Of a stretch of DNA of 57,776 nt, positions 1 to 57,027 are shown in pieces. The notes under the pieces are model-generated. The model was not told the DNA's origin, ran no database searches, and saw only the letters and a list, made by a program, of their open reading frames with translations. Position numbers and translations under genes: made by a program. The stretch comes from an uncultured Halorubrum sp. GTDB taxonomy: Archaea; Halobacteriota; Halobacteria; Halobacteriales; Haloferacaceae. The DNA lies in the NCBI RefSeq assembly GCF_937146585.1, contig NZ_CAKZRO010000140.1:1-57776 (forward strand), written 5' to 3'. Position 1 is the stretch's first letter. Every line of letters begins with the position of its first letter.

Positions 1-175
1 CGACCATCGCGACGTCGACCGCGTTCTTCGACATCCGGGCGATGCCGGTGACGATCCGCGGCCACGCGAGGTCGGTGGTCCTGATCACACGGTGCCGGTC
101 GATCAGCCCGGCGCGCGCGAGGGCGAAGCCGATGTACAAGATCAGCGCACGGAAGGGGTTCGGCAGGCGAGACAC
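1..175 (-). CDS. MATE family efflux transporter, N-terminal fragment
   Basis: The minus strand reads from a GTG at 175 into the window edge with no stop, giving about 58 residues that begin VSRLPNPFRALILYIG and include the segment TDLAWPRIVTGIARMSKN. This resembles the N-terminus of haloarchaeal MATE (multidrug and toxin extrusion) transporters, which start with a short helix and then the first membrane segment. A GGAG ribosome-binding motif lies about 11 bases upstream of the GTG. It follows the EamA gene on the same strand after an 87-base gap. Family assignment rests on recalled similarity of a short fragment, so it is moderate; the gene continues outside the window. Confidence 0.55.
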   Translation of the reverse strand, partial: MSRLPNPFRALILYIGFALARAGLIDRHRVIRTTDLAWPRIVTGIARMSKNAVDVAMV

Positions 176-262
176 GGCAGATGCGCTCCTTTTCTGCTGG
201 CGGCTAAAGGCGTTTCGTCACGCGGCAGTCGGTTCCGGATCGGCGGGGCGCGGCCGGGCGGA

Positions 263-703
263 TCAGGCCCCGGAGACCAGGTAGACGGCCGCGGCGGCGA
301 AGAGGATGCCGACCCCCTTGCGGGCGGTGAACGACTCGCCGAGGAACAGGAAGCCGATCACCGAGGAGAAGACGAGGAACATCGCGAAGATGGGCGTCAC
401 GACGCTCACCGGGCCGAGCGACAGCGAGCGGTACAGCGCGAGGATCCCGATCCCGAGGAACACCCCCGCGGCGAGCACGTACGCGAGCTTCGGCGACCCG
501 AGGTGCGCGGTGAACCCCTGTCCGGTGTACGCGATCACGCCGATCGCCATGGCGACGAGCAGCGTGTTCGAGACGACGACGGCGACGTCGCTCGGGATCG
601 CGTTCGGTCCGGTCGTGGCGACGCGCATCAGCGGAGAGACGAGCGCGTACGCGCCCATGGCGAGCAGCGCGAACGGGAGATACGTCGTGGCCGAGGCGTC
701 CAT
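263..703 (-). CDS. EamA-family small transporter (single EamA domain)
   Basis: The product is 146 residues with five predicted membrane helices, roughly at 8-28, 42-60, 74-92, 98-120 and 129-145. The stretch LYRSLSLGPVSVVTPIF followed by LGESFTARKGVGI is the characteristic end of one EamA (DMT superfamily) domain. Most relatives have two such domains in about 300 residues, so this half-size form would need to pair with itself or a partner. Substrate is not predictable. It runs between the histidine kinase and the MATE gene, all on the minus strand. Confidence 0.75.
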   Translation of the reverse strand: MDASATTYLPFALLAMGAYALVSPLMRVATTGPNAIPSDVAVVVSNTLLVAMAIGVIAYTGQGFTAHLGSPKLAYVLAAGVFLGIGILALYRSLSLGPVSVVTPIFAMFLVFSSVIGFLFLGESFTARKGVGILFAAAAVYLVSGA

Positions 704-791
704 ACTTCGGCGTCGACGGCCGACGGCAAGTGCCTGTCGACCCGGAGTCCCCGCCCCTCCGTCGGTTGGCGGCGGTCCGGTCGAGGACCGT

Positions 792-2492
792 TCAGCGGTC
801 GGTGCCGGGCACTCCCGACCGCTCGACCGGCACGGAGACCGTAACGAGCGTCCCGCGAGGCTCGCGCTCCTCGAAGCTGATCCGCCCGCCGAGGTGGTCG
901 ACGCCCCACTTGACGATCCAGAGGCCGATCCCGCTGCCGTGGCGCAGCGGCGTCTCCGCGCCGCGGTCCAGCACGTCGTACTCGGCCGGGTCGATCCCGG
1001 GACCGTCGTCCGCCACGGTGACGTCGACCCAGGCGTCCGCGACGGTCGCGTCGATCTCTACCCACGGCGACGCCCGGTCGTTGTGGCGGATCGCGTTCGA
1101 GCAGAGGTTCTCCAGCACGACGCGCAACACGACGGAGACCGTGACCTCCGGCACCCGGCCGACCTCGACCCGGGCCCCGGAGTCGATCTCGCGGGCGTCG
1201 GCGACGGCCTCGTCGACGACGTCCGGCAGCGGCGACGACGCGTACTCCTGCGTCGGATCGAACAGCTCCCCGGCGGTCCGGGTGCGCTCGCTGAGCTCGA
1301 GTATCCGCCCCGCGCTCTCTTCGATCACCGACACGGCGCGCTCGTCGCTCGACTCCGCGCACAGCTGTTCGGCGTACCCCTGGATGAGGTTCGTCTCCGT
1401 CCGGACGTCGTGACGGAACACGCGGTTGAGCACGCTGAGCCGCTGCTGTTGGCCGAGGTACGCGCCGACGTCGTGGAAGGTGATGACGCTGGCGCTGGTG
1501 CGGTCGTGGTCGTCGACCACGTCCCGCACCGTCGCCTCGTACGGCCGTCGCCCGTCGCGGCCGACGATCGGGATCGCCCGGGGCTTGTCGTCGCCGTCGG
1601 CGAGGTCCCTGACCGCGTCGTACCGCGGGACGGTCGACGACGCGGGTTTCCCGATGGCCTCGCGGCGGTCGATGCCGAACGCCTCGGCCGCGCTCTCGTT
1701 CAGGTCGACGAGGAGCCCCTCCGTCCCGACGACGAAGACCGGGTCGTGGAGCTGCTCGAAGACGAGCTGGCGGGCGCGCCGCCGCGGCGCCGGCGCGAGC
1801 GTGAGCAGGCGGAACCGCGAGAGCGCGAGGAGGTACGCCACCCCGGAGACCACGAACACCAGCGGCGTGGGGTCGAGCCCGGCGATCGGGATCGCGCCGG
1901 TAATGTAGGCGACGCTGCCGGCCCACGGGGCCGCGGTCCCGACGAGCAGAGCCGCGCTCTGCCCCCGGAACGGCCGCGCGTCGTCGCGGATCAGCTGGAG
2001 CAACGGGACCGACCCGACCGCGCCGAGGAGGTAGGTGTAGCCGGCGATGATGTAGTACAGCGGGCCGGGGACGACTTCGAGGAACGTCCCGACGGCGGTC
2101 TCCCGCACGACCCGTTCGGTCGCGAGGAGGTTCCCCGGGTCGCCGGCGGCGGCGACCGCGACGGTGGCCGCGGGGACGATGGAGACCGCGGCGACGGTGA
2201 AGGGGGTCACGTAGCGGTCGTAGCCGGTGTACGCCAGCGCGAAGAAGAGCCAGCCGACCGGGACGGCGACGACCCCGACCCACTGGACGTCGTACCACAG
2301 CGCCTTCGCCGGCAGCGTCGCCGCCTCGAGTTCGAAGACGAGGAACGTCGCCCACCACACTTGCCCGACCAGCAGCACGGCGAGCCACGTCGCGCCCGGT
2401 TCCGGACGCTCGCGCCACGCGAGTATCGCCGCCGCCAACCCGACGCTCACCGCGACGAGGAGGGCGACGGACAGCGGACTCAGCGCGGCCAT
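792..2492 (-). CDS. Membrane-bound sensor histidine kinase (7TM-PAS-HisKA-HATPase)
   Basis: A 566-residue kinase. Residues 1-230 form about seven hydrophobic helices of the 7TM sensor type that starts many haloarchaeal kinases. Residues 240-350 are a PAS domain (LHDPVFVVGTEGLLVDLNES). The phosphoacceptor is His361 in VFRHDVRTETN. The ATPase domain shows the N box (NLCSNAIRHND), the G1 box DDGPGI and the G2 box GSGIGLWIVKWG. It would sense a membrane signal and phosphorylate an unlinked response regulator, since none is adjacent. The ATG at 2492 is supported by a TATA-like box at 2514-2523. Confidence 0.9.
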   Translation of the reverse strand: MAALSPLSVALLVAVSVGLAAAILAWRERPEPGATWLAVLLVGQVWWATFLVFELEAATLPAKALWYDVQWVGVVAVPVGWLFFALAYTGYDRYVTPFTVAAVSIVPAATVAVAAAGDPGNLLATERVVRETAVGTFLEVVPGPLYYIIAGYTYLLGAVGSVPLLQLIRDDARPFRGQSAALLVGTAAPWAGSVAYITGAIPIAGLDPTPLVFVVSGVAYLLALSRFRLLTLAPAPRRRARQLVFEQLHDPVFVVGTEGLLVDLNESAAEAFGIDRREAIGKPASSTVPRYDAVRDLADGDDKPRAIPIVGRDGRRPYEATVRDVVDDHDRTSASVITFHDVGAYLGQQQRLSVLNRVFRHDVRTETNLIQGYAEQLCAESSDERAVSVIEESAGRILELSERTRTAGELFDPTQEYASSPLPDVVDEAVADAREIDSGARVEVGRVPEVTVSVVLRVVLENLCSNAIRHNDRASPWVEIDATVADAWVDVTVADDGPGIDPAEYDVLDRGAETPLRHGSGIGLWIVKWGVDHLGGRISFEEREPRGTLVTVSVPVERSGVPGTDR

Positions 2493-2513
2493 TGTGATTT
2501 TTTACGCGCATTT

Positions 2514-2523
2514 GATTTATAAC
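2514..2523 (-). promoter_or_regulatory. TATA-like promoter element of the 7TM kinase gene
   Basis: Minus-strand GTTATAAATC lies about 26 bases before the ATG at 2492, fitting archaeal box A spacing for a leaderless transcript. It stands out in a GC-rich setting. Confidence 0.6.
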
Positions 2524-2547
2524 TCATCTGGTCGAATTATCTCATCT

Positions 2548-2553
2548 AAAAAA
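2548..2553 (-). terminator. Oligo-T terminator after the UbiA-like gene
   Basis: On the minus strand a run of six T follows the stop of the prenyltransferase gene after a GC-rich segment with the self-complementary GCCGCTCAGCGG. Archaeal termination is driven by oligo-T runs, and this one separates the gene from the next promoter at 2514-2523. Confidence 0.45.
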
Positions 2554-2592
2554 CCGACCGCTGAGCGGCGCTGATCCGGATTCGCCGCCGTC

Positions 2593-3618
2593 TCAGGGAC
2601 CCAGCGCGAGGAGCACCGCGCCGGCGACGAGGTAGCTACAGTCGGGCGCGACGCCGAGCGTCGAGCCGTCGAGTCGGTCCGCGAGCGCGGTGACGGCCAC
2701 GGAGACGCCGAGACCGGCGGCGAGCGCGGCGACGACGCTCCCCGACGCGGCGTCGGTCGCGACGAGGGCGACGAGGAGTCCCGCGGCGACCCCGTCGACT
2801 GCGAACAGGATCCGACGCGTCTCGGCGACCCCGTACACGACCGGAAGCGTCGACACGCCCTGCGCGGCGTCGGCCGCGACGTCTCTGACGTTCGGCACCT
2901 CGACGTCGACGAACGAGCGGGCCGCGACGTACGCGAACAGCAGCGCGACGGTCGGCGCGTGCGCCGGTTCGACGGGGACGCGGGCGAACGCCAGCGGCGC
3001 GGCGACCACCGCGACCGCCCACGCGAGCGCGACCGCCGCGGAGTTGAGGAGGAACACGTCCTTCAGCCGCGGGACCGAGACCCCTCCGAGCCGCGGGACG
3101 CGGTCGCCGAGCGGCGCGACGAGGCCGCCGACGGTCGGCAGCCAGTCGGTCGCGTAGCCGACCCACACCGCGCCCGGGACGAGGACGAGCGCGAGCGCCG
3201 CGGGACCCGCGCCGACCGCGAGCGCGACCGCGAGGCCGTAGCTCAGGGCGGCGGCGACCATGAGCTGATCGCCGTAGCGTAACGCGAACTGCGCCCGAGC
3301 CGGGGTCGACCCGACGTCGCCCTCGGCGTCCGCGACGTGGTCCGCGGCGTACACCGAGAACGCGACGAGTCCGACCGCGACCGGCGCGGTCGACAGCGGG
3401 ACGCCGAGCGCGGCCGTCGCGATGGCGACCTCGACGGCCGCGACGACCGCGGTGAACGGGGCCGCCGTCGCGAACGCGCCGACCCGTCTGCGGGTCCCCG
3501 CGGCGGCGGTGGTTGCGTGTGAACGAGACTGCTCTGCCGTGCCGTCCGACGTCGACGGCCTGATCGGTCCGTTTGCCATAGTGTCGTCCGCCGCCGGCCG
3601 GCGACGGACGTCCGTCAT
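2593..3618 (-). CDS. UbiA-family prenyltransferase
   Basis: A 341-residue multi-spanning membrane protein with about eight hydrophobic helices. Two aspartate-rich motifs match the UbiA superfamily: YAADHVADAEGD near residue 92 and VPNVRDVAADAAQG near residue 244, which would bind Mg-prenyl diphosphate. Such enzymes prenylate lipids, quinones or carotenoids in haloarchaea, and the acceptor cannot be told here. The first 40 residues are hydrophilic and low complexity, so a start at Met14 is possible. A TATA-like element at 3655-3663 favours the ATG at 3618. Confidence 0.8.
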   Translation of the reverse strand: MTDVRRRPAADDTMANGPIRPSTSDGTAEQSRSHATTAAAGTRRRVGAFATAAPFTAVVAAVEVAIATAALGVPLSTAPVAVGLVAFSVYAADHVADAEGDVGSTPARAQFALRYGDQLMVAAALSYGLAVALAVGAGPAALALVLVPGAVWVGYATDWLPTVGGLVAPLGDRVPRLGGVSVPRLKDVFLLNSAAVALAWAVAVVAAPLAFARVPVEPAHAPTVALLFAYVAARSFVDVEVPNVRDVAADAAQGVSTLPVVYGVAETRRILFAVDGVAAGLLVALVATDAASGSVVAALAAGLGVSVAVTALADRLDGSTLGVAPDCSYLVAGAVLLALGP

Positions 3619-3654
3619 GGGGGATCGATCCGTATCTATCCACGCCGTACGGTG

Positions 3655-3663
3655 TTAATAAAA
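3655..3663 (-). promoter_or_regulatory. TATA-like promoter element of the UbiA-like gene
   Basis: Minus-strand TTTTATTAA lies about 40 bases ahead of the ATG at 3618, giving a predicted leader of around 14 bases. Confidence 0.55.
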
Positions 3664-3758
3664 CGCGAGCGATCGTGGTATCATTCCGCACGGTCCGCCG
3701 GCGAGAGACGGCTTCGGGGTTCAGTACGCTTTTGACCCGAGCGGCCGATCCCTCGCGT

Positions 3759-4529
3759 ATGGACGGAACTTTCGATCACGTGATGATCCGCGTCGAGGAC
3801 CTCGAAGAGAGCCTCGACTGGTACCAGACGCACCTGAACTACGAGGAGAAGGGCCGCTGGGAGGCCGACACGTTCACCAACGTGTTCCTCGGCCCCGAGG
3901 ACGTTCACGAGGACGGCGCGCTCCTCGAGCTCACGTACAACCACGACGGCCGGAGCTACGAGCTCGGCGACGCGTGGGGCCACATCGCGGTCCGCGTCCC
4001 CGAGGACGCGCTCCAGGAGTCGTACGACCAGCTGATGGCTGAGGGCGTCGACGACTACCGCGACCCCGAGTCGTGCGGGAACCGCTACGCGTTCGTGAAG
4101 GACCCCGACGGCCACGAGATCGAGATCGTCAAGCGCGACCAGGGCGCGAAGTGGAGCATCGACCACACGATGATCCGCGTCGAGGACGCCGACGAGGCGC
4201 TCGGCTACTGGACCCGGAAGTTCGAGTACACGGAGCAGCCGAGCGGCCGCTGGGAAGCCGACACCTTCTCGAACTACTTCGTGGCCCCCGAGGACGCGCC
4301 GGAGGAGGCGATGAAGCTCGAGCTCACCTACAACTACGACGGCCGCGAGTACACGATGGGCGACGGCTGGGGCCACGTCGCGGTGCGCGTCGACGACCTC
4401 GACGACGCCTGGGACGACCTGCTGACCCGCGAGGCGCCCGACTACCGCGACCCCGAGTCCTGCGACCACAACTACGCGTTCACGAAGGATCAAGACGGTC
4501 ACGAAGTCGAACTGGTCACGCGGAACTGA
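3759..4529 (+). CDS. Tandem-domain VOC/glyoxalase I-like metalloenzyme
   Basis: The 256-residue protein contains two consecutive VOC domains, about residues 1-126 and 134-256, that clearly descend from one duplication (both contain RWEADTF, RDPESC and LELTYN). Each keeps a full set of likely metal ligands: His in FDHVM/IDHTM, Glu in ELTYN, His in WGHIAV/WGHVAV and Glu in EIEIV/EVELV. Glyoxalase I converts the methylglyoxal hemithioacetal to an S-lactoyl thiol, and haloarchaea use a non-glutathione thiol such as gamma-glutamylcysteine. The ATG at 3759 is preferred over an upstream in-frame start at 3675, because homology begins at MDGTFDHVMIRV and a T-rich box lies near 3728-3734. Confidence 0.85.
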   Translation: MDGTFDHVMIRVEDLEESLDWYQTHLNYEEKGRWEADTFTNVFLGPEDVHEDGALLELTYNHDGRSYELGDAWGHIAVRVPEDALQESYDQLMAEGVDDYRDPESCGNRYAFVKDPDGHEIEIVKRDQGAKWSIDHTMIRVEDADEALGYWTRKFEYTEQPSGRWEADTFSNYFVAPEDAPEEAMKLELTYNYDGREYTMGDGWGHVAVRVDDLDDAWDDLLTREAPDYRDPESCDHNYAFTKDQDGHEVELVTRN

Positions 4530-4587
4530 TCGACCGGTCCGGACGAGATACCGACTGCGGCCGCCTTCTCGCTCGCGCTCGACCCGA

Positions 4588-7299
4588 TCAGTCCGTCGAC
4601 TCGACGCCCGTGACCTCGAAGCGAGCGCCGCCGGCGTCGCTCTCGACCGCGCGCACCGACCACCCGTGGGCGTCGGCCACCTGCTCGACGATCCGCAGCC
4701 CGAACCCGGTGCCCGACTGCGTGGTCGAGTAGCCGGCGTCGAACGCGTCCTCGCGGCGGTCCGGGTCGATCCCCGACCCGTCGTCGGCCACGTAGAAGCC
4801 GTCCGGCAGGCTCCCGACCGTGACCGTCACGTCGTCGCCGGCGTGTTCGACGGCGTTCCGGATCAGGTTCTCCAACAGCTGCCTGAGCCGCCCCTCGTCC
4901 GCGACGATCATCCCCTCGGCCTCGGCGCGGAGCGTCGCGTCCCGGGTGTCGACGGTCCGCCAACAGGAGCCGACGACCTGCCCCAGGTCGACCGGCTCGG
5001 CGTCGGTCACGGGGTCGCCCTCGCGGGCGAGCGTGAGCAGGTCGTCTATCAGTGCCGCCATCCGGTCGTGGGCCCGCTCGACCGCGGGCAGGTGATCGCT
5101 GTCGCACTCCTCGAGAGCGAGCTCGGTCCGCCCCCGGGCGACCTCGAGGGGGTTCCGGAGGTCGTGTGACACCACGCCGGCGAACTCCTCTAGCCGGTCG
5201 TTCTGCCGCTCCAACTCGGCGGTCCGCTCGGCGAGCCGGCGCGTGCGCGCCTCGGTCTGGAACGCCGTCTCGGCCGCGGTCGCGAGGATGCCGGCGAGGT
5301 ACTCGTCGCCGCCGCCGAACACCCCCGGCTCCGTCTCGCCGATCGAGATCGTCCCGTACTCGCCGATGGGGACGACGAGCAGGCTCCGCAGCGCCGTGTC
5401 GGCGTCGAACGCGTCCGTCGTCCGGATGTCGTCGAACTTCCGCGGCTCGCCCGACTCGAACGCCGCCCAGTTGAGGCTCCCGCCGTCCGGCGTGAACGTC
5501 GGGCGCTCCGGCAGTATCTCGGCCGCGGAGTCGGAGACCGCGACCGGCACCAGCCCGCCGGCCTCCTCGTCGTGGAGCCGGACGGTGACGATCGAGAACT
5601 CCAAGACGTCGGTCGCGGCCTCGACCGCCCGCTCGGCGATCTCCTCCCGCGACTCCGCGCGGACGAGAGTCCGCGTCGCGCCGTGGAGCCGCTCGACGCG
5701 ACTCTCCCGCTCGATCCGGTCGAGCGCCGCCTCGAGGTGCCCGGAGAGGATCTCCGCCACGAGGACGTCGGTGTCGGTGAACTCGTGCGGGTTCGGGGAG
5801 GAGACGACGAACAGCCCGTGGTCGCCGATCGGGCGCAACACCAGGCTCTCCGCGGGCGAGGACTCGTCGAGCCGGCCGGACGACGAGAGCTCGTCGATGA
5901 CGACCGACTCCTCGGTCCGGAAGGCGTCCCACGCCAGCGCCGCGCGGGAGCCGGGCGGCGCGTCGCGGTCGTACGACGGCTGCTCCTCGAACATCGTCGG
6001 CACGGAGTCGCCGAGCGCGGCCGGCCGGAGGCTCTCGCCGTCCGCCGACAGCAGGTGGATCCCGCTCAGTCCGGCGTCGACGAGGTCGTCGACCGCCTTC
6101 ACCGCGAGGTCGGCCGCCTCCTCGGTGGTGCGGGTGTAGTTGAGCTCCCGGGTCCAGTTCCGGAGGTGCGAGAGCGTCCGCTCGCGCTCCTTCCGCTCGG
6201 AGACGTCGCGCGTGGTGACGACGTACCCCTCGACGCCGTCCGTCTCCAGCTCGTCGCTGCCAACGGACTCGAGCCACCGGTAATCGCCGTCGGCCGTCCG
6301 GAACCGGTACTCGACGGACGGCGGCCCGTCGGCCTCGTCGACGTCGCTGAACGCCGCCTCGACCGCCGCTCGGTCCTCCGGGTGGACGTAGTCCAGCGCC
6401 CGGTCGCCGAGCAGGTCCGACGGGGTGTAGCCGGTCACGCGCTCGCAGGAGGGGCTCAGATACCGGAGCCGCCAGTCCCGAGACAGCACCGCGACCACGT
6501 CGCTGGCGTGTTCGATGAACGCCCGGTGGCGGTCGCGCTCGCTGTCGTCGCGGACCACGCCGACGAACTGACGCTCCCCGTCGGCGACGAACTCGCCGTA
6601 CGACACCGAGACGGGGACCTCGTGGCCCTCGCGGTGGAGCGCGTTGAACCGAACGTCGGACCAGTCGATGCCGCGTTCGCCGGTGGCGAGGTAGCGCTCG
6701 ACCGCCTCGTCGTGCTCCGTCCGCCGCCGCTCGGGGATCAGCCTCGTCAGTGGCTCGCCTTCGAGCTCGGCGGGATCGTACCCGAACACCGACTCGACCG
6801 CCGGGTTCGCGAACCGGATCTCGCCGTCGGTGTCGACCGACAGGATCGCGTCGGAGGCGCCGTTCGCGACCGCGCGGAACTGCTCGACCGCCTGCTCGGC
6901 CTCCAGCTCGGCCCGCCGCTTCTCGACGGCCTCGACGATCCGGTTCGCCAGCCGCTCGTACCGCTCCGTGCCGCCGCGCTTCTGGAGGTAGTCGGTGACG
7001 CCGGCGGAGATCGCCTCGCTCGCGACCTCCTCGCTCCCCCGGCCGGTGAAGAGGATGAAGGGGAGGTCGGGGTGTCGCTCGCGGACCTCGTCGAGGAACT
7101 CGAGCCCGTCGCGTTCGGGCATCTCGTAGTCGGAGACGACGCACTCGACGTCGCGCTCGGCGAGGACGTCGAGGCCGCCCGCGGGCTCGGCCGCCGTCTC
7201 GACCGCGATCCGGTCGGCCTCGCGCTCCAGGTACGAGGCGGTGACCGCGCGGAGGTCCGGATCGTCGTCGACGAGCAGGACCGGGATGCGGTCGGACAT
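4588..7299 (-). CDS. Hybrid sensor: receiver-PAS-PAS-GAF-GAF-histidine kinase
   Basis: A soluble 903-residue protein. Residues 5-120 are a response-regulator receiver with DDDPDLR and phosphoacceptor Asp57 in VVSDYEMPE. PAS domains follow at about 140-255 and 257-372, ending with the classic TTRDVSERKERE. Two GAF-like domains lie at about 373-530 and 531-690. The kinase core has His712 in VVSHDLRNPLEV, then LIRNAVEH, DDGSGI and GTGFGLRIVEQ. No membrane segment or DNA-binding output is present, so it is likely a cytoplasmic phosphorelay node. The same receiver-first architecture recurs at 19030-21618. It is transcribed alone. Confidence 0.9.
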   Translation of the reverse strand: MSDRIPVLLVDDDPDLRAVTASYLEREADRIAVETAAEPAGGLDVLAERDVECVVSDYEMPERDGLEFLDEVRERHPDLPFILFTGRGSEEVASEAISAGVTDYLQKRGGTERYERLANRIVEAVEKRRAELEAEQAVEQFRAVANGASDAILSVDTDGEIRFANPAVESVFGYDPAELEGEPLTRLIPERRRTEHDEAVERYLATGERGIDWSDVRFNALHREGHEVPVSVSYGEFVADGERQFVGVVRDDSERDRHRAFIEHASDVVAVLSRDWRLRYLSPSCERVTGYTPSDLLGDRALDYVHPEDRAAVEAAFSDVDEADGPPSVEYRFRTADGDYRWLESVGSDELETDGVEGYVVTTRDVSERKERERTLSHLRNWTRELNYTRTTEEAADLAVKAVDDLVDAGLSGIHLLSADGESLRPAALGDSVPTMFEEQPSYDRDAPPGSRAALAWDAFRTEESVVIDELSSSGRLDESSPAESLVLRPIGDHGLFVVSSPNPHEFTDTDVLVAEILSGHLEAALDRIERESRVERLHGATRTLVRAESREEIAERAVEAATDVLEFSIVTVRLHDEEAGGLVPVAVSDSAAEILPERPTFTPDGGSLNWAAFESGEPRKFDDIRTTDAFDADTALRSLLVVPIGEYGTISIGETEPGVFGGGDEYLAGILATAAETAFQTEARTRRLAERTAELERQNDRLEEFAGVVSHDLRNPLEVARGRTELALEECDSDHLPAVERAHDRMAALIDDLLTLAREGDPVTDAEPVDLGQVVGSCWRTVDTRDATLRAEAEGMIVADEGRLRQLLENLIRNAVEHAGDDVTVTVGSLPDGFYVADDGSGIDPDRREDAFDAGYSTTQSGTGFGLRIVEQVADAHGWSVRAVESDAGGARFEVTGVESTD

Positions 7300-7404
7300 A
7301 CGTGCCGAATACCAACGAACTGACTATAATGGTTGCGGCGTTCGTCGGCCGTTCCGACGCGCCGATTGCCGTCACCGGACGCCGGACCCGCTCGTCCGGG
7401 CCCG

Positions 7405-7830
7405 TCAGTCGCCGCCCGCGGGTCGGAAGACGACGAGCCGCTCGCCGTCGGTGGCGCGCTCGCCGACGTCGGCCGCGACCGCGTCTCCGGTGTCGACGGC
7501 CGGCGGTCCGTCCGTCTCGTCGCCGCCGCGGAGGACCCCCGTCAGCCGCGTGGGGCCGAAGTCGACCACCGCGGACACGTACGGCGCGTCGTCGGCGAAC
7601 CGCGGCGACGGGACGTGGACCACGCTGTACGTCTCGACGGTCCCCGTCTCGTCGAGCGCTTCCCGCGAGAGGTCTGACGACCCGCACTCGGGGCAGACGC
7701 GCCGCGGCGGGAGCGAGCCGTGGCCGCGCGGACAGACGAGCGCGAACCCCTCGCCGGCGGCCAGCGCGTCGAGCCACTCGGCGTGGGCGCGGTCCGGCGG
7801 CGGCGCGGCGTCCGCGCCGTCGTCGCTCAT
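7405..7830 (-). CDS. DUF35/OB-fold zinc-ribbon protein partnering a thiolase
   Basis: The 141-residue product has an N-terminal helix, a rubredoxin-like zinc ribbon (CPRGHGSLPPRRVCPECG, with Cys/His ligands near 33-51) and then an OB fold. This is the Zn-ribbon/DUF35 family, often encoded next to thiolase-like enzymes; in archaea it bridges acetoacetyl-CoA thiolase and HMG-CoA synthase or binds acyl-CoA. Its ATG overlaps the stop of the thiolase gene (ATGA), so they are translationally coupled. The first ligand set reads C-x2-G-H rather than C-x2-C, so its metal content is uncertain. Confidence 0.8.
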   Translation of the reverse strand: MSDDGADAAPPPDRAHAEWLDALAAGEGFALVCPRGHGSLPPRRVCPECGSSDLSREALDETGTVETYSVVHVPSPRFADDAPYVSAVVDFGPTRLTGVLRGGDETDGPPAVDTGDAVAADVGERATDGERLVVFRPAGGD

Positions 7831-8993
7831 TCCGCCACCTCCAGCACGTGGACGACGGCGCTGGCGACGGTGCCGCCCGCGTTGTGGGTGACGCCGACCT
7901 CGGCGTCAGAGACGTGGCCGCTGTTGGGGTGGTCGCCCCGGAGCAGGCGCGTCAGCTCCGCGATCTGAGACCCCCCGGTCGCGCCGACGGGGTGGCCCTT
8001 CGCCTTCAGGCCGCCGGAGAGGTTCACGGGGAGGTCGCCGTCGGCGGTCGTGACCCCCTCGCGGGCCGCGGCGATCCCCTCGCCGGGCTCGAACAGCCCC
8101 AGCGACTCGAGCGCCAGCACCTCGGCGATGGTGAAGCAGTCGTGGACCTCCGCGACGTCGACGTCGCCCGGCTCCACCCCCGCGTCGGCGTAGGCCGCGT
8201 CGGCGGCGGCGTCCGCGGCGGGCGTCCGCGCGAGGTGCTCGCGGTCGCCCAGCGCCATCCGGTCGGTCCCCTGCCCGGTCCCGGTCACCGCGACCGGGGC
8301 GTCGAGGTCGTGCTCGGCCGCGTACTCCTCGGAGACTAACACGAGCGCGCTCGCGCCGTCGGTTATCGGGCAGGCGTCGTAGAGGTGGAGCGGCTCCGCG
8401 ACCGGCGGCGCGTCGAGCGCCTCGTCGACGGACACCTCCTTCCGGTACTGGGCGTACTCGTTCGGGACGGCGTTGGCGTGGTTCTTCGACGCGACGTGCG
8501 CGAGGTCGGCCCGCGTCCCGCCGTACGCGTCGAAGTAGGCGGTCGCCATGAGCGCGTAGGCCCCCGGGAACGTGACCCCCGCCCGGGCCTCGAAGAGGTC
8601 GTCTGCGGCGATGGCGAGCCCCTCCGTCACCTCGTCGGTCGGGAGGTTCGTCATGCGCTCCATGCCGCCCGCGAGGACCACGTCGGCGTCGCCCGCCGCC
8701 ACCGTCCGCACCGCCTCGCGGACCGCGACCCCGGCCGACGCGCACGCCGACTCGTAGCGCGTCGCCGGACAGCGGACGCCGGCGGCCTCGGCCATCAGCG
8801 GCGCCTGGTGGCCCTGGTGCTCGGCGAGCGCGCCCATGAAGTTCCCGTAGTTCAGTTCCTCGACGTCGGCCCGGTCCACGGCGGCGTCCTCGAACGCCCG
8901 GAGCGCGGCCTCCGCGAACAGGTCGCGGCCGGTCCGCTCCGGGTGGCTGCCGAAGGGAGTGAGCCCGACCCCGGCGACGCGTACGTCTGTCAT
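7827..8993 (-). CDS. Thiolase-family acyl-CoA acetyltransferase
   Basis: The 388-residue protein matches the thiolase/SCP-x superfamily in length and motifs. The nucleophile region is YESACASAGVAVREA, with the active Cys near residue 85. EVHDCFTIAEVLALE near 280 and the glycine-rich NLSGGLKAKGHPVGATG near 330, which holds the catalytic His, follow. It would condense or cleave acyl-CoA, most plausibly in lipid or isoprenoid precursor metabolism together with the overlapping DUF35 gene. The exact substrate is unknown. The ATG at 8993 sits about 28 bases after a TATA-like box at 9018-9025. Confidence 0.85.
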   Translation of the reverse strand: MTDVRVAGVGLTPFGSHPERTGRDLFAEAALRAFEDAAVDRADVEELNYGNFMGALAEHQGHQAPLMAEAAGVRCPATRYESACASAGVAVREAVRTVAAGDADVVLAGGMERMTNLPTDEVTEGLAIAADDLFEARAGVTFPGAYALMATAYFDAYGGTRADLAHVASKNHANAVPNEYAQYRKEVSVDEALDAPPVAEPLHLYDACPITDGASALVLVSEEYAAEHDLDAPVAVTGTGQGTDRMALGDREHLARTPAADAAADAAYADAGVEPGDVDVAEVHDCFTIAEVLALESLGLFEPGEGIAAAREGVTTADGDLPVNLSGGLKAKGHPVGATGGSQIAELTRLLRGDHPNSGHVSDAEVGVTHNAGGTVASAVVHVLEVAE

Positions 8994-9017
8994 ACACGAA
9001 CGATGATCGGGGATACG

Positions 9018-9025
9018 GTTTATCT
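9018..9025 (-). promoter_or_regulatory. TATA-like promoter of the thiolase-DUF35 operon
   Basis: Minus-strand AGATAAAC lies 25-32 bases before the thiolase ATG, consistent with a leaderless two-gene transcript. Confidence 0.5.
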
Positions 9026-9119
9026 CTGCCGAAAGCCGGGGTCCCGGTCGGTCGACAGGCGCGCGGCGCGTAAGTGAGAAGGAACGAATCGCGGTACGGC
9101 GTCGACGGTCCGTGCGCGC

Positions 9120-42818: not shown

Positions 42819-43307
42819 ATGGACGCCGAGCGCGAGGTACTCGACGTGTTGGCGCGGAACGCCCGCGAGGACATCGACGACATCGCGGCCCAGACGGGCC
42901 TCGACGCGGCGGCGGTAGCGGACGCGATCGACGCGCTGGAGGCGGACGGCGTCGTCCACGGCTACCAGGCGGTCGTCGACTGGGACCGCGTCGACGAGGG
43001 GAAGATCCGCGCAGTCGTCGAGATCAACGTCGAACTCGACCGCGAAACGGGCTACGAGCAGGTGGCGGACCGCATCGCGAAGTTCCCCGCGGTCGACGCC
43101 TTACACCTCGTCTCGGGCGACTACGACTTCGCCGTCGAGGTGCTCGGCGAGAACATGCAGGACGTCTCCGAGTTCATCTCCGAGCAGGTCGCGCCGATGC
43201 CGGCGGTCACCCAGACGGTGACCCACTACATCATGGAGACGTACAAGGACGGCGGGATCCGGTTCGAGGACGGGGACGACGACGACCGCCTCTCCGTGTC
43301 GCCATGA
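42819..43307 (+). CDS. Lrp/AsnC family transcriptional regulator
   Basis: A 162-residue protein with an N-terminal helix-turn-helix (DIDDIAAQTGLDAAAVADAI, about 16-35) and an RAM-type ligand domain (VHGYQAVVDWDRVDEGKI, ALHLVSGDYDFAVEVLGE). The final 20 residues are acidic. Its stop overlaps the aminotransferase start codon (ATGA), so the two are coupled, and it likely regulates amino-acid metabolism, perhaps its own operon. Confidence 0.88.
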   Translation: MDAEREVLDVLARNAREDIDDIAAQTGLDAAAVADAIDALEADGVVHGYQAVVDWDRVDEGKIRAVVEINVELDRETGYEQVADRIAKFPAVDALHLVSGDYDFAVEVLGENMQDVSEFISEQVAPMPAVTQTVTHYIMETYKDGGIRFEDGDDDDRLSVSP

Positions 43308-53986: not shown

Positions 53987-54181
53987 TTACAGCCGAGTGA
54001 GGTTCGTCGCGCGCGGACCCTTGTCCGCCTCCTCGATCTCGAACTCTACCTCCTGTCCCTCCTCGAGGTCCGGGCCGCCGACGTCTTCCATGTGGAAGAA
54101 CACGTCCTCGTCAGCGTCGTCAGTCTCGATGAATCCGTAGCCGCCGGTGTCGTTGAAGAAGTCGACCTTGCCTGTCGCCAT
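53987..54181 (-). CDS. cspA: Cold-shock domain protein
   Basis: A 64-residue single-domain Csp. It starts MATGKVDFFNDTGGYGFIE, with the RNP1-type KVDFFNDTGGYGF and RNP2-type DVFFHMEDV motifs that bind single-stranded nucleic acid. The bacterial signature KGFGFI is replaced by GYGFI, as is common in haloarchaea. A CTTATATCC box about 27 bases upstream of the ATG gives a near-leaderless transcript. Confidence 0.93.
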   Translation of the reverse strand: MATGKVDFFNDTGGYGFIETDDADEDVFFHMEDVGGPDLEEGQEVEFEIEEADKGPRATNLTRL

Positions 54182-54216: not shown

Positions 54217-54329
54217 TTGTGTGCCGTATTCGCGCCGGTATGAACGTGCTGAATTAGCTCTTCTCCGCAGATAGGTTTCGATCCCAAATTTCGGCGCCGC
54301 TTCGGCTTTGGTTTCGAATGGGAAAACGC

Positions 54330-54350
54330 ACTAAGGGAGTATCCCGTAGT
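54330..54350. promoter_or_regulatory. 21-bp near-palindrome just upstream of the copper ATPase
   Basis: ACTAAGGGA, a 3-base centre, then TCCCGTAGT: arms pair at 8 of 9 positions. It ends 10 bases before the ATG at 54361, in the position of an operator over the transcription start. The regulated signal is presumably copper, by gene context only. Confidence 0.6.
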
Positions 54351-54360
54351 AGAAGGTAAG

Positions 54361-57027
54361 ATGAGCACCAGATCCACTCGCCTCGACATCACGGGGATGA
54401 GCTGCGCCAACTGCTCGGCGAGCGTCGGCGACGCCGTGGCGTCGCTCGACGGCGTCGCGCAGGCGGACGCGAACTACGCCACCGACGAGGCGACCGTCGA
54501 GTACGACCCGGAGGCGACCTCGCTCGCCGAGATCTTCGACGCGATCGAGGGCGCCGGCTACGGGGCGGTCTCGGAGACGGCGACCGTCGCGATCACCGAC
54601 ATGTCCTGCGCGAACTGCGCGGACGCCAACCGCGACGCGCTCGAGTCCGTGCCCGGCGTCGTCGAGGCCGACGTGAACTACGCGACCGACGAGGCGCAGG
54701 TGCGGTACAACCCCGCGGAGACCTCGCGGTCTGCGCTGTACGACGCCGTCGAGGACGCCGGCTACTCGCCGGTCCGCGAGGTCGGGGGCGGCGACGCTGG
54801 CGACGCGGACGGGGAGGGCGGCGACGCCGGCGAGAGCGCGCGCGACGCGGCCCGGAACGCGGAGATCCGCAAGCAGCTCCGCCTGACGCTGTTCGGCGCG
54901 GCGCTGTCCGCCCCGCTCCTCTTCATGCTCGTCGACAACTTCCTGCTCGGGGGCGCGGTCGTGCCCGACCGGCTCTTCGGCGTCGGGATCCACTGGGCCG
55001 CGTTCGCGTTCGCCACGCCGGTCCAGGTCGTGCTCGGCCGGCCGTTCTACGTGAACTCCTACAAGGCGCTCGTCACGAACGGGCGGGCCAACATGGACGT
55101 GCTGATCGCCCTCGGCTCGACGACCGCGTACGTCTACTCCGTCGCCGTCCTCCTCGATCTGGTCGCCGGGAGCGTCTACTTCGACACGGCCGCGCTCATC
55201 CTCTTCTTCATCACGCTCGGGAACTACCTCGAGGCGCGCTCGAAGGGGCAGGCCGGCGACGCGCTCCGGAAGCTCTTGGAGATGGAGGCCGACACCGCCA
55301 CCCTCGTCGACGCCGACGGGACCGAACGCGAGGTCCCGGTCGAGGACGTCTCGGTCGGCGACCGGATGAAGGTCCGCCCGGGCGAGCAGGTCCCGACCGA
55401 CGGCGTCGTCGTCGAGGGGCAGTCCGCGGTCGACGAGTCGATGGTGACGGGCGAGTCGGTCCCCGTCGAGAAGACCGAGGGCGACGAGGTCGTCGGCTCC
55501 ACGATCAACGAGAACGGGCTCCTCGTCGTCGAGGCGACGAAGGTCGGCGCGGACACCGCGCTCCAGCAGATCGTCCAGACGGTGAAGGAGGCGCAGTCCC
55601 GCCAGCCCGAGATCCAGAACCTCGCGGACCGCATCTCCGCGTACTTCGTGCCCGCGGTGATCGCGAACGCCCTGCTGTGGGGCGTCGTCTGGTTCCTCTT
55701 CCCCGAGACGCTCGCGGCGTTCGTCGACCGGCTCCCGCTGTGGAGCCAGGTCGCGGGCGGCCCCGCGGCGGTCGGCGGCAGCGTCTCGGTGTTCGAGTTC
55801 GCTGTGGTCGTCTTCGCGTCCGCGGTGCTTATCGCCTGCCCCTGCGCGCTCGGGCTCGCGACCCCGGCCGCGACGATGGTCGGGACCACCATCGGCGCGC
55901 AGAACGGCGTCTTGTTCAAGGGCGGCGACGTCCTCGAGCGCGCGAAGGACGTCGACACGGTCGTCTTCGACAAGACGGGGACGCTCACGCGGGGCGAGAT
56001 GGAGCTTACCGACGTGGTCGCGGTCGGCGAGGTGCCCGACGGGGGCGCCGTCGCCGAGCGCGGCGACGCGGCGGCGACGGACGACCCGGCGACGGCGGAC
56101 GACTCGACGACGACGGCCGAAGACGAGGTCCTCCGCCTCGCCGCGAGCGCGGAGCGCGGCAGCGAACACCCCCTGGCCCAGGCGATCGTCGACGGAGCGG
56201 AGGCGCGCGCGCTCGAACTCGAGGACCCCGAATCGTTCGAGAACGTCCCCGGCCACGGGGTCCGCGCCACCGTGGCGGGCGACGAGGTGCTCGTCGGGAA
56301 CCGGAAGCTGCTCCGCGACGCGGGCGTCGACCCCGCCCCCGCCGCGGAGACGATGGAGCGGCTCGAACGCGAGGGCAAGACGGCGATGCTCGTCGCCCGG
56401 ATCCCCGCCGGTGCGGACGACGGGGAGCTCCTCGGCGTCGTCGCGGACGCGGACACGGTGAAGCCGAGCGCGAAGGACGCCGTGAGCCAGCTCCGCGACC
56501 GCGGCGTCGACGTGATGATGATCACGGGCGACAACGAGCGCACGGCCCGCGCGGTGGCCGAGCAGGTGGGGATCGACCCCGAGAACGTCCGGGCCGGCGT
56601 CCTTCCCGAGGACAAGTCCGACGCGGTCGAGGCGATCCAGAGCGACGGCCGGAAGGCGATGATGGTCGGCGACGGCGTCAACGACGCGCCGGCGCTGGCG
56701 GTCGCGTACGTCGGCACCGCCATCGGCTCCGGGACCGACGTGGCCATCGAGGCCGCCGACGTGACGCTGATGCGCGACGACCCGCTCGACGTCGCGAAGG
56801 CGATCCGCGTCTCCGACGCGACGCTCCAGAAGATCAAACAGAACCTCGTGTGGGCGCTCGGCTACAACACGGCGATGATCCCGCTCGCGTCGCTCGGGCT
56901 CCTCCAGCCGGCCCTCGCGGCCGGTGCGATGGCGATCTCGTCCGTCTCGGTGCTGACGAACAGCCTGCTCTTCCGGCGGTACGACCCCGACCGCGACTAC
57001 GCGCTTCTCGGGTTCCTGCGGCGCTGA
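54361..57027 (+). CDS. copA: Copper-translocating P1B-type ATPase
   Basis: The 888-residue pump has two N-terminal heavy-metal-associated domains, each with the pair of cysteines ([10 protein letters not shown] at about 14-23 and [10 protein letters not shown] at about 80-89). The membrane part has the ion path motif [13 protein letters not shown] at about 491-503, the phosphorylation site [10 protein letters not shown], the actuator TGES, HP motif SEHPLA and the hinge [14 protein letters not shown] ligands indicate a Cu(I)/Ag(I) exporter rather than zinc. An acidic insert of about 25 residues lies after DKTGTLT. A palindrome is positioned directly upstream; no copper regulator is adjacent. 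Confidence 0.93.

Follow-up and report, generated by a model that had tools for sequence, protein, structure and literature searches.

A probable copper-responsive promoter of copA in haloarchaea

In Halobacterium salinarum NRC-1, yvgX depends on the protein VNG1179C for its induction by copper (PMC1779511). The same protein reportedly regulates two HMA chaperones (PMC3551603) and has been published as a copper-dependent activator (PMC1779511, PMC3551603 and PMC3600143, the last of which prints VNG1197C). ChIP-based motif finding for the family of VNG1179C has returned mostly TATA-like elements (PMC4177876), and the motif of VNG1179C is described as unlike those of its paralogues (PMC4236453). 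In Hfx. alexandrinus the genes copA, lrp and copZ are induced by silver (PMC10694973). For Haloferax mediterranei, a published survey mentions no regulator specific to copper in its accessible part (PMC9240420). CopR of Pyrococcus furiosus activates copA in vitro (PMC7830388). For the haloarchaeal core promoter a TATA box of the form TTWT, a BRE proposed to be CGAAA and a WW element at -10 have been described (PMC4983044). The haloarchaeal motif described below was not found spelled out in letters in the accessible text of the open-licence literature.

The region upstream of copA in an uncultured Halorubrum sp. is probably a copper-activated promoter of the CopR type, in which a palindrome close to the start codon is the overlap of a weak box A with a CCSTA element and not the operator of a repressor.

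The copA locus

The window analysed here is a stretch of 57,776 nucleotides (contig NZ_CAKZRO010000140.1), and the features of its copA locus are collected in Table 1. For comparison, the best 80 of 317 copA relatives were fetched together with their loci, and the closest of these, with 88-95% protein identity, are labelled Halorubrum. Upstream regions that were near-identical (95% over 100 nt) were collapsed, which reduced 81 promoters to 62, the window included; the 62 are kin by descent, and the counts given below ignore this kinship. The cold-shock gene is divergent to copA in the window and, by motif search, in 5 of the 80 loci and is therefore placed outside the conserved module.

Table 1. 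Features of the copA locus and its promoter in the window
Feature	Position	Strand	Remarks
Divergent cold-shock protein gene	53987..54181	-	Pfam CSD, 2.7e-20; shares a 179-nt intergenic region with copA
Upstream site 1 (UAS1)	54276..54288	.	TTTCGATCCCAAA; differs from the consensus TTTSGAWTCSAAA at one base
Upstream site 2 (UAS2)	54306..54320	.	CTTTGGTTTCGAATG, degenerate second copy, abuts the BRE
BRE-like element	54320..54327	+	GGGAAAAC; A54324 and A54325 each in 62/62 promoters
Palindrome of the initial annotation	54330..54350	.	Covers both box A and the -10-like element
Putative weak box A	54331..54336	+	CTAAGG, G/C-containing; left arm of the palindrome; T54332 and A54334 in 62/62
Extended -10-like element	54343..54348	+	CCCGTA (consensus CCSTA, core CSTA); right arm of the palindrome; T54347 in 62/62
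Predicted transcription start	54358..54361	+	Leaderless or with a leader of about 3 nt; predicted from the spacing of BRE, box A and TA
copA	54361..57027	+	P1B ATPase for copper export, with 888 aa and two HMA domains; Pfam E1-E2_ATPase, HMA (two stretches), Hydrolase

In L012 (positions 1-9098) and in L013-L026, some 8-9 kb that include the regulator, an HMA chaperone and copA are 97.3-100% identical across loci whose labels name many haloarchaeal genera (14 loci compared with L012; L032 follows at 88-93%). By its sequence, this stretch is apparently a recently spread copper island.

Presence and conservation of the palindrome

The near-perfect palindrome that the initial annotation had described is present: its arms, ACTAAGGGA and TCCCGTAGT, are separated by the spacer GTA, form 8 of 9 complementary pairs and end 10 bases (54351-54360) before the copA ATG. 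It is missing from the repeat listing of the window because its exact runs are shorter than the seed. The exact word has a single match in the window at up to three mismatches where shuffles expect 0.06, a comparison that tests the word of 54330-54350 and not palindromes in general. Inverted repeats as such (8 or more pairs between arms of 9, spacer 0-10) number 452 in the window as against 301-355 in five first-order Markov simulations, and one that is equally good occurs in 11.3% of 1000 simulated copA intergenic regions of the same composition; as a palindrome, the element is not clearly above chance for its region. A role as a repeated operator was rejected as well, since the window holds no second copy and the 7 sites with up to three mismatches in the window's own genome (2.7 Mb, 92% complete) are close to the 5 that a reversed-pattern control gives.

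The palindrome had been read as a copper-responsive operator at which a repressor would block transcription. Such a function would predict symmetry before orthologous copA genes, and this is where the reading fails. Eight of the nine pairs are formed in 5 of the 62 non-redundant promoters, namely the window and four Halorubrum relatives, and seven in six more; the remaining 51 have fewer than seven. All 11 promoters with at least seven pairs are labelled Halorubrum or are the window, and the equivalent site in L139, from a genome of another genus, is ACTAAGGGAGTACCCCGTAGA with 6 of 9 pairs. The pair 54334/54346 is complementary in none of the 62 promoters, and where CCCG of the right arm has become CCCC (12/62) the left arm never compensates, A54334 being invariant. 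In favour of an operator, the pair 54331/54349 is complementary in 28 promoters compared with a column-shuffle mean of 18, an excess that is not taken as evidence of covariation because relatedness alone can produce it. The high pairing among the Halorubrum promoters also fits an operator. So does the position, as a protein bound over box A and near the expected start would stand in the way of transcription. In these close relatives, however, it is the entire stretch from about 54306 onward that is conserved by eye and not the palindrome alone. A repressor that binds the palindrome is thus improbable even within Halorubrum, and the palindrome probably does not serve any regulator as its operator.

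Because the two arms are separately conserved while their symmetry is not, the better reading takes the left arm for a weak box A and sees in the right arm an element of its own, CCSTA. The palindrome looks like a lineage-limited and partly accidental symmetry of these two pieces of the core promoter. Of the earlier proposal of copper control, a conserved region that controls copA is supported, and the palindrome as its operator is not.

A conserved promoter module upstream of copA

In the alignment of the 62 promoters, T54277, C54284, A54324, A54325, T54332, A54334 and T54347 are invariant, A54287, C54345 and A54348 are each present in 61, and T54278 is present in 58. Two of these invariant columns fall into site 1, the best-conserved candidate for a regulator site, whose copy in the window has mismatches in 2 of 6 pairs and whose centre lies 42 or 43 bases from the BRE in all 62 promoters. 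Site 2 follows with its centre 31 bp (35 promoters) or 32 bp (27 promoters) from that of site 1. Its symmetry is weak in copA promoters; in several promoters of copper-chaperone genes the equivalent position is taken by CTTTGGATTCGAAGCAG. Sites 1 and 2 together are a better candidate operator than the palindrome.

The distance from A54324 in the BRE to A54333 in box A is 9 bases, from box A to the TA of CSTA 14 bp and from the BRE to this TA 23 bp in all 62 promoters, the aligned block being gapless there; the ATG follows 11, 12, 14 or 15 bases past the T of the TA. Compared with the haloarchaeal core pattern, GAAA and TA stand at fitting distances, and the putative box A, identified from its position, is CTAAGG, not TTWT. 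The palindrome had been placed between box A and the start codon; given the conserved spacing, its left arm would itself occupy the position of box A. If the haloarchaeal pattern of BRE, TATA box and WW applies, the TA would lie at about -11/-10 and transcription would start at about 54358.

Conservation of this kind could in principle merely reflect the recent horizontal spread of one copper cassette, and stretches of about 8-9 kb with 97-100% identity between loci of many genus labels do exist. This explanation is very improbable: the counts were taken after near-identical promoters had been merged (81 to 62), those that remained differ from one another except in the conserved columns, and the module is also found before other genes.

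Specificity of the module for copper genes

Between -22 and -6, CCSTA is found in 47 of the 62 copA promoters and at 2 of 278 control starts, CSTA in 59 promoters and at 26 control starts; the controls are other gene starts of the same loci, defined mechanically as ORF starts and not as annotated genes. Among the 64 control starts with a TATA-like box, 2 have CCSTA and 8 have CSTA.

The module extends to genes for copper chaperones in the relatives. From 49 small HMA ORFs, 19 in collapsed loci and 1 without the HMA motif were removed, which left 29 promoters to be read, 26 of them non-redundant. When these were scored with a matrix derived solely from copA promoters (54306-54350), 24 of the 26 exceeded 99% of the 278 controls, with the best matches starting at -56 to -49. 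This shows that copA and copper-chaperone promoters of the relatives have an element in common. The signal comes mainly from site 2 and the BRE, which as a part alone suffice in 18/26, and matrices of the downstream part are weak (3/26 for 54329-54350 and 4/26 for 54339-54350 above the 99% control level). By simple counts the chaperone promoters contain CSTA in 22/26 and CCSTA in 14/26. Upstream of the HMA chaperone gene that lies beside the regulator in the window's own genome, no such module was seen by eye.

The two top-scoring controls are genes for an ABC transporter ATPase and for a membrane protein of unknown function. The former (L027:8933-9661) has a partial copper-type module upstream, without CSTA. 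The latter (L065:9478-10116) encodes 213 residues without a Pfam match and is preceded by a near-complete module of the copA type, its ATG lying about 17 nt further away than that of copA; by its promoter, this gene is a candidate for a new copper gene. A copper-type core was also observed upstream of two ArsP_1 permease genes, in L059 (894-2225, also with a YHS domain) and in L138, which are candidates for further members of the regulon.

At the scale of whole genomes, site 1 followed by CCGTA at 45-62 bp gives 26 matches in 23 of 119 family genomes, and site 1 followed by CCSTA at the same distance gives 29 matches in 27 of 145 class genomes, two samples that overlap; the reversed pattern gives 0 in both. 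Among 35 distinct composite sites, 23 precede copA, 5 an HMA chaperone gene, 1 an ArsP_1 permease gene and 1 the gene for a Met-rich SHOCT-domain protein (in L134), while 5 precede nothing related (L132, L133, L141, L164 and L165). The permease and SHOCT assignments, for which the script returned 'none', were made from the reading frames, whose starts lie about 40 nt beyond the element. With the chaperone-like spacing there are 10 matches in the 119 genomes and 0 for the reversed pattern, and 8 of the 10 precede an HMA chaperone gene. As an exact composite match is absent from 96 of the 119 and 118 of the 145 genomes, the window's own included, the search measures specificity and not coverage. 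Places resembling site 1 with up to two mismatches number 22 in the window's own genome compared with 3 for the control. At the 15 of the 22 read by eye the pattern of BRE, box A and CSTA was not seen, copA's own excepted, and two of the other seven overlap site 2 of copA.

The role of the CCSTA element

Haloarchaea have several TFBs. Within a copper-activated promoter, CCSTA might be the contact of one particular general factor of this kind, or an element that controls melting, with the TRASH-Lrp regulator acting from upstream only. As a feature of the core promoter it might ensure that the promoter stays dependent on its activator. The fixed distances of 14 bp from box A and 23 bp from the BRE in all 62 promoters agree with such a role, as do the rarity of CCSTA in other promoters (2/278 and 2/64) and its position, which is that of the haloarchaeal WW element at -10 (PMC4983044). 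A wrapped Lrp octamer would, however, yield the same fixed spacing, and the chaperone promoters keep CSTA better than CCSTA. This role is proposed tentatively.

An equally tentative proposal is that CCSTA serves as a third DNA contact of a regulator octamer, downstream of the TATA box, comparable to Ptr2 and BarR, for which contacts at such a place have been cited (PMC7830388). The centres of site 1, site 2 and CCSTA are about 31 and about 33 bp apart, each distance being near three helical turns, and CopR of P. furiosus is octameric with an extended footprint (PMC7830388). Against a contact by the same protein, CCSTA and the half-site TTTSGA of the upstream sites are dissimilar.

Both proposals would be compatible with a broader idea, which we consider quite conceivable if short of probable: haloarchaeal copper genes may have a special core promoter, in which a weak box A bearing G/C is combined with a regulon-specific CCSTA at a fixed distance. 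This would be read by a wrapped regulator or by a particular TFB, and copper control would then act through the core promoter itself.

The candidate regulator

The initial annotation noted no regulator next to the palindrome, and this holds true. The sole Lrp/AsnC-like match in the window is weak (42825-43169; 25% identity, E 3e-4, residues 5-116, the TRASH part being unmatched). On another contig (C8, 3521-4108), the same genome encodes a TRASH-Lrp regulator with an AsnC-type HTH domain (4.5e-15) and the C-terminal domain PF24273, TRASH_HVO_1752_C (6.1e-24). On this contig (L109:1501-2400) the regulator gene lies together with a divergent HMA chaperone gene, away from copA.

In the relatives the regulator is often a neighbour of copA. 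At least 56 of the 80 loci encode an Lrp-type protein that has a cysteine pattern at its C-terminus, and in at least 47 of them its gene immediately precedes copA in the same orientation; after collapse this is at least 28/61, 19 of the 47 being collapsed copies. These counts are lower bounds because L011 and L038 share the C-terminal codons upstream of copA yet miss the cysteine pattern. In the window and in L001-L009, the gene is not directly upstream of copA. Within the genus, 49 of 52 genomes have a match to the regulator at E 1e-30. Of the three misses, one (G144) has the regulator by TRASH family, directly upstream of copA and with the module present; the other two (G140 and G145) are incomplete (82% and 79%), and their copA hits have 61% identity and no HMA start by motif search. 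The guess of the initial annotation, that a protein of Lrp type or with a TRASH domain is responsible, was thus well aimed: the likeliest regulator combines the two.

A model of copper activation

The order of the module is site 1 (TTTSGAWTCSAAA), 31-32 bp, site 2 abutting the BRE, 9 bp, box A, 14 bp, the TA of CSTA and the ATG. In the model that appears most likely, an Lrp-type regulator with a C-terminal TRASH domain, of the VNG1179C/HVO_1752 type and encoded on contig C8, would bind sites 1 and 2. When loaded with copper, it would recruit TBP/TFB to an otherwise weak box A and thereby switch copA on, and the same regulator would act likewise at the copper-chaperone gene in relatives.

Activation is more likely here than the block by a repressor that had been assumed: the upstream element with the best conservation stands at the position of archaeal Lrp activators, and VNG1179C of Halobacterium is published as an activator. 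The family itself does not settle the sign of regulation, since CopR of Thermococcus onnurineus, as cited in PMC7830388, represses copA.

Comparison with known systems

Like the bacterial operators of the CopY type, the locus has a palindrome before a copper ATPase gene; unlike in those systems, no such repressor gene adjoins it and the symmetry is not conserved. With the copA-lrp-copZ cluster of Haloferax, of the HVO_1752 type, the locus is linked by PF24273, which is found in Haloferax volcanii as well as in the regulator described here. The window's genome differs from it in having the regulator gene on a contig other than that of copA and a divergent cold-shock gene beside copA.

The copA promoter of P. 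furiosus shares with the present one an unusual TATA box enriched in C and, immediately before the BRE, a semi-palindrome that has TT..AA ends (PMC7830388). The motifs differ (TTNNCAWWWTGNNAA in P. furiosus and TTTSGAWTCSAAA here), and copR and copA are divergent in P. furiosus, unlike here. The CCSTA element is not mentioned for the CopR promoter in the accessible text of that study (PMC7830388). The footprint of conservation draws attention to this element, which is unusual and lies after box A and before the start.

The copper genes of H. salinarum NRC-1, yvgX (copA) and those for the HMA chaperones, belong to the same gene families and are governed by VNG1179C, a regulator of the same Lrp-type TRASH class. 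A similar module before chaperone genes and a few others predicts new copper genes in addition to these families. The haloarchaeal copper regulator is known genetically, and the letter-by-letter footprint over 62 promoters complements this knowledge with a candidate binding site that is directly testable.
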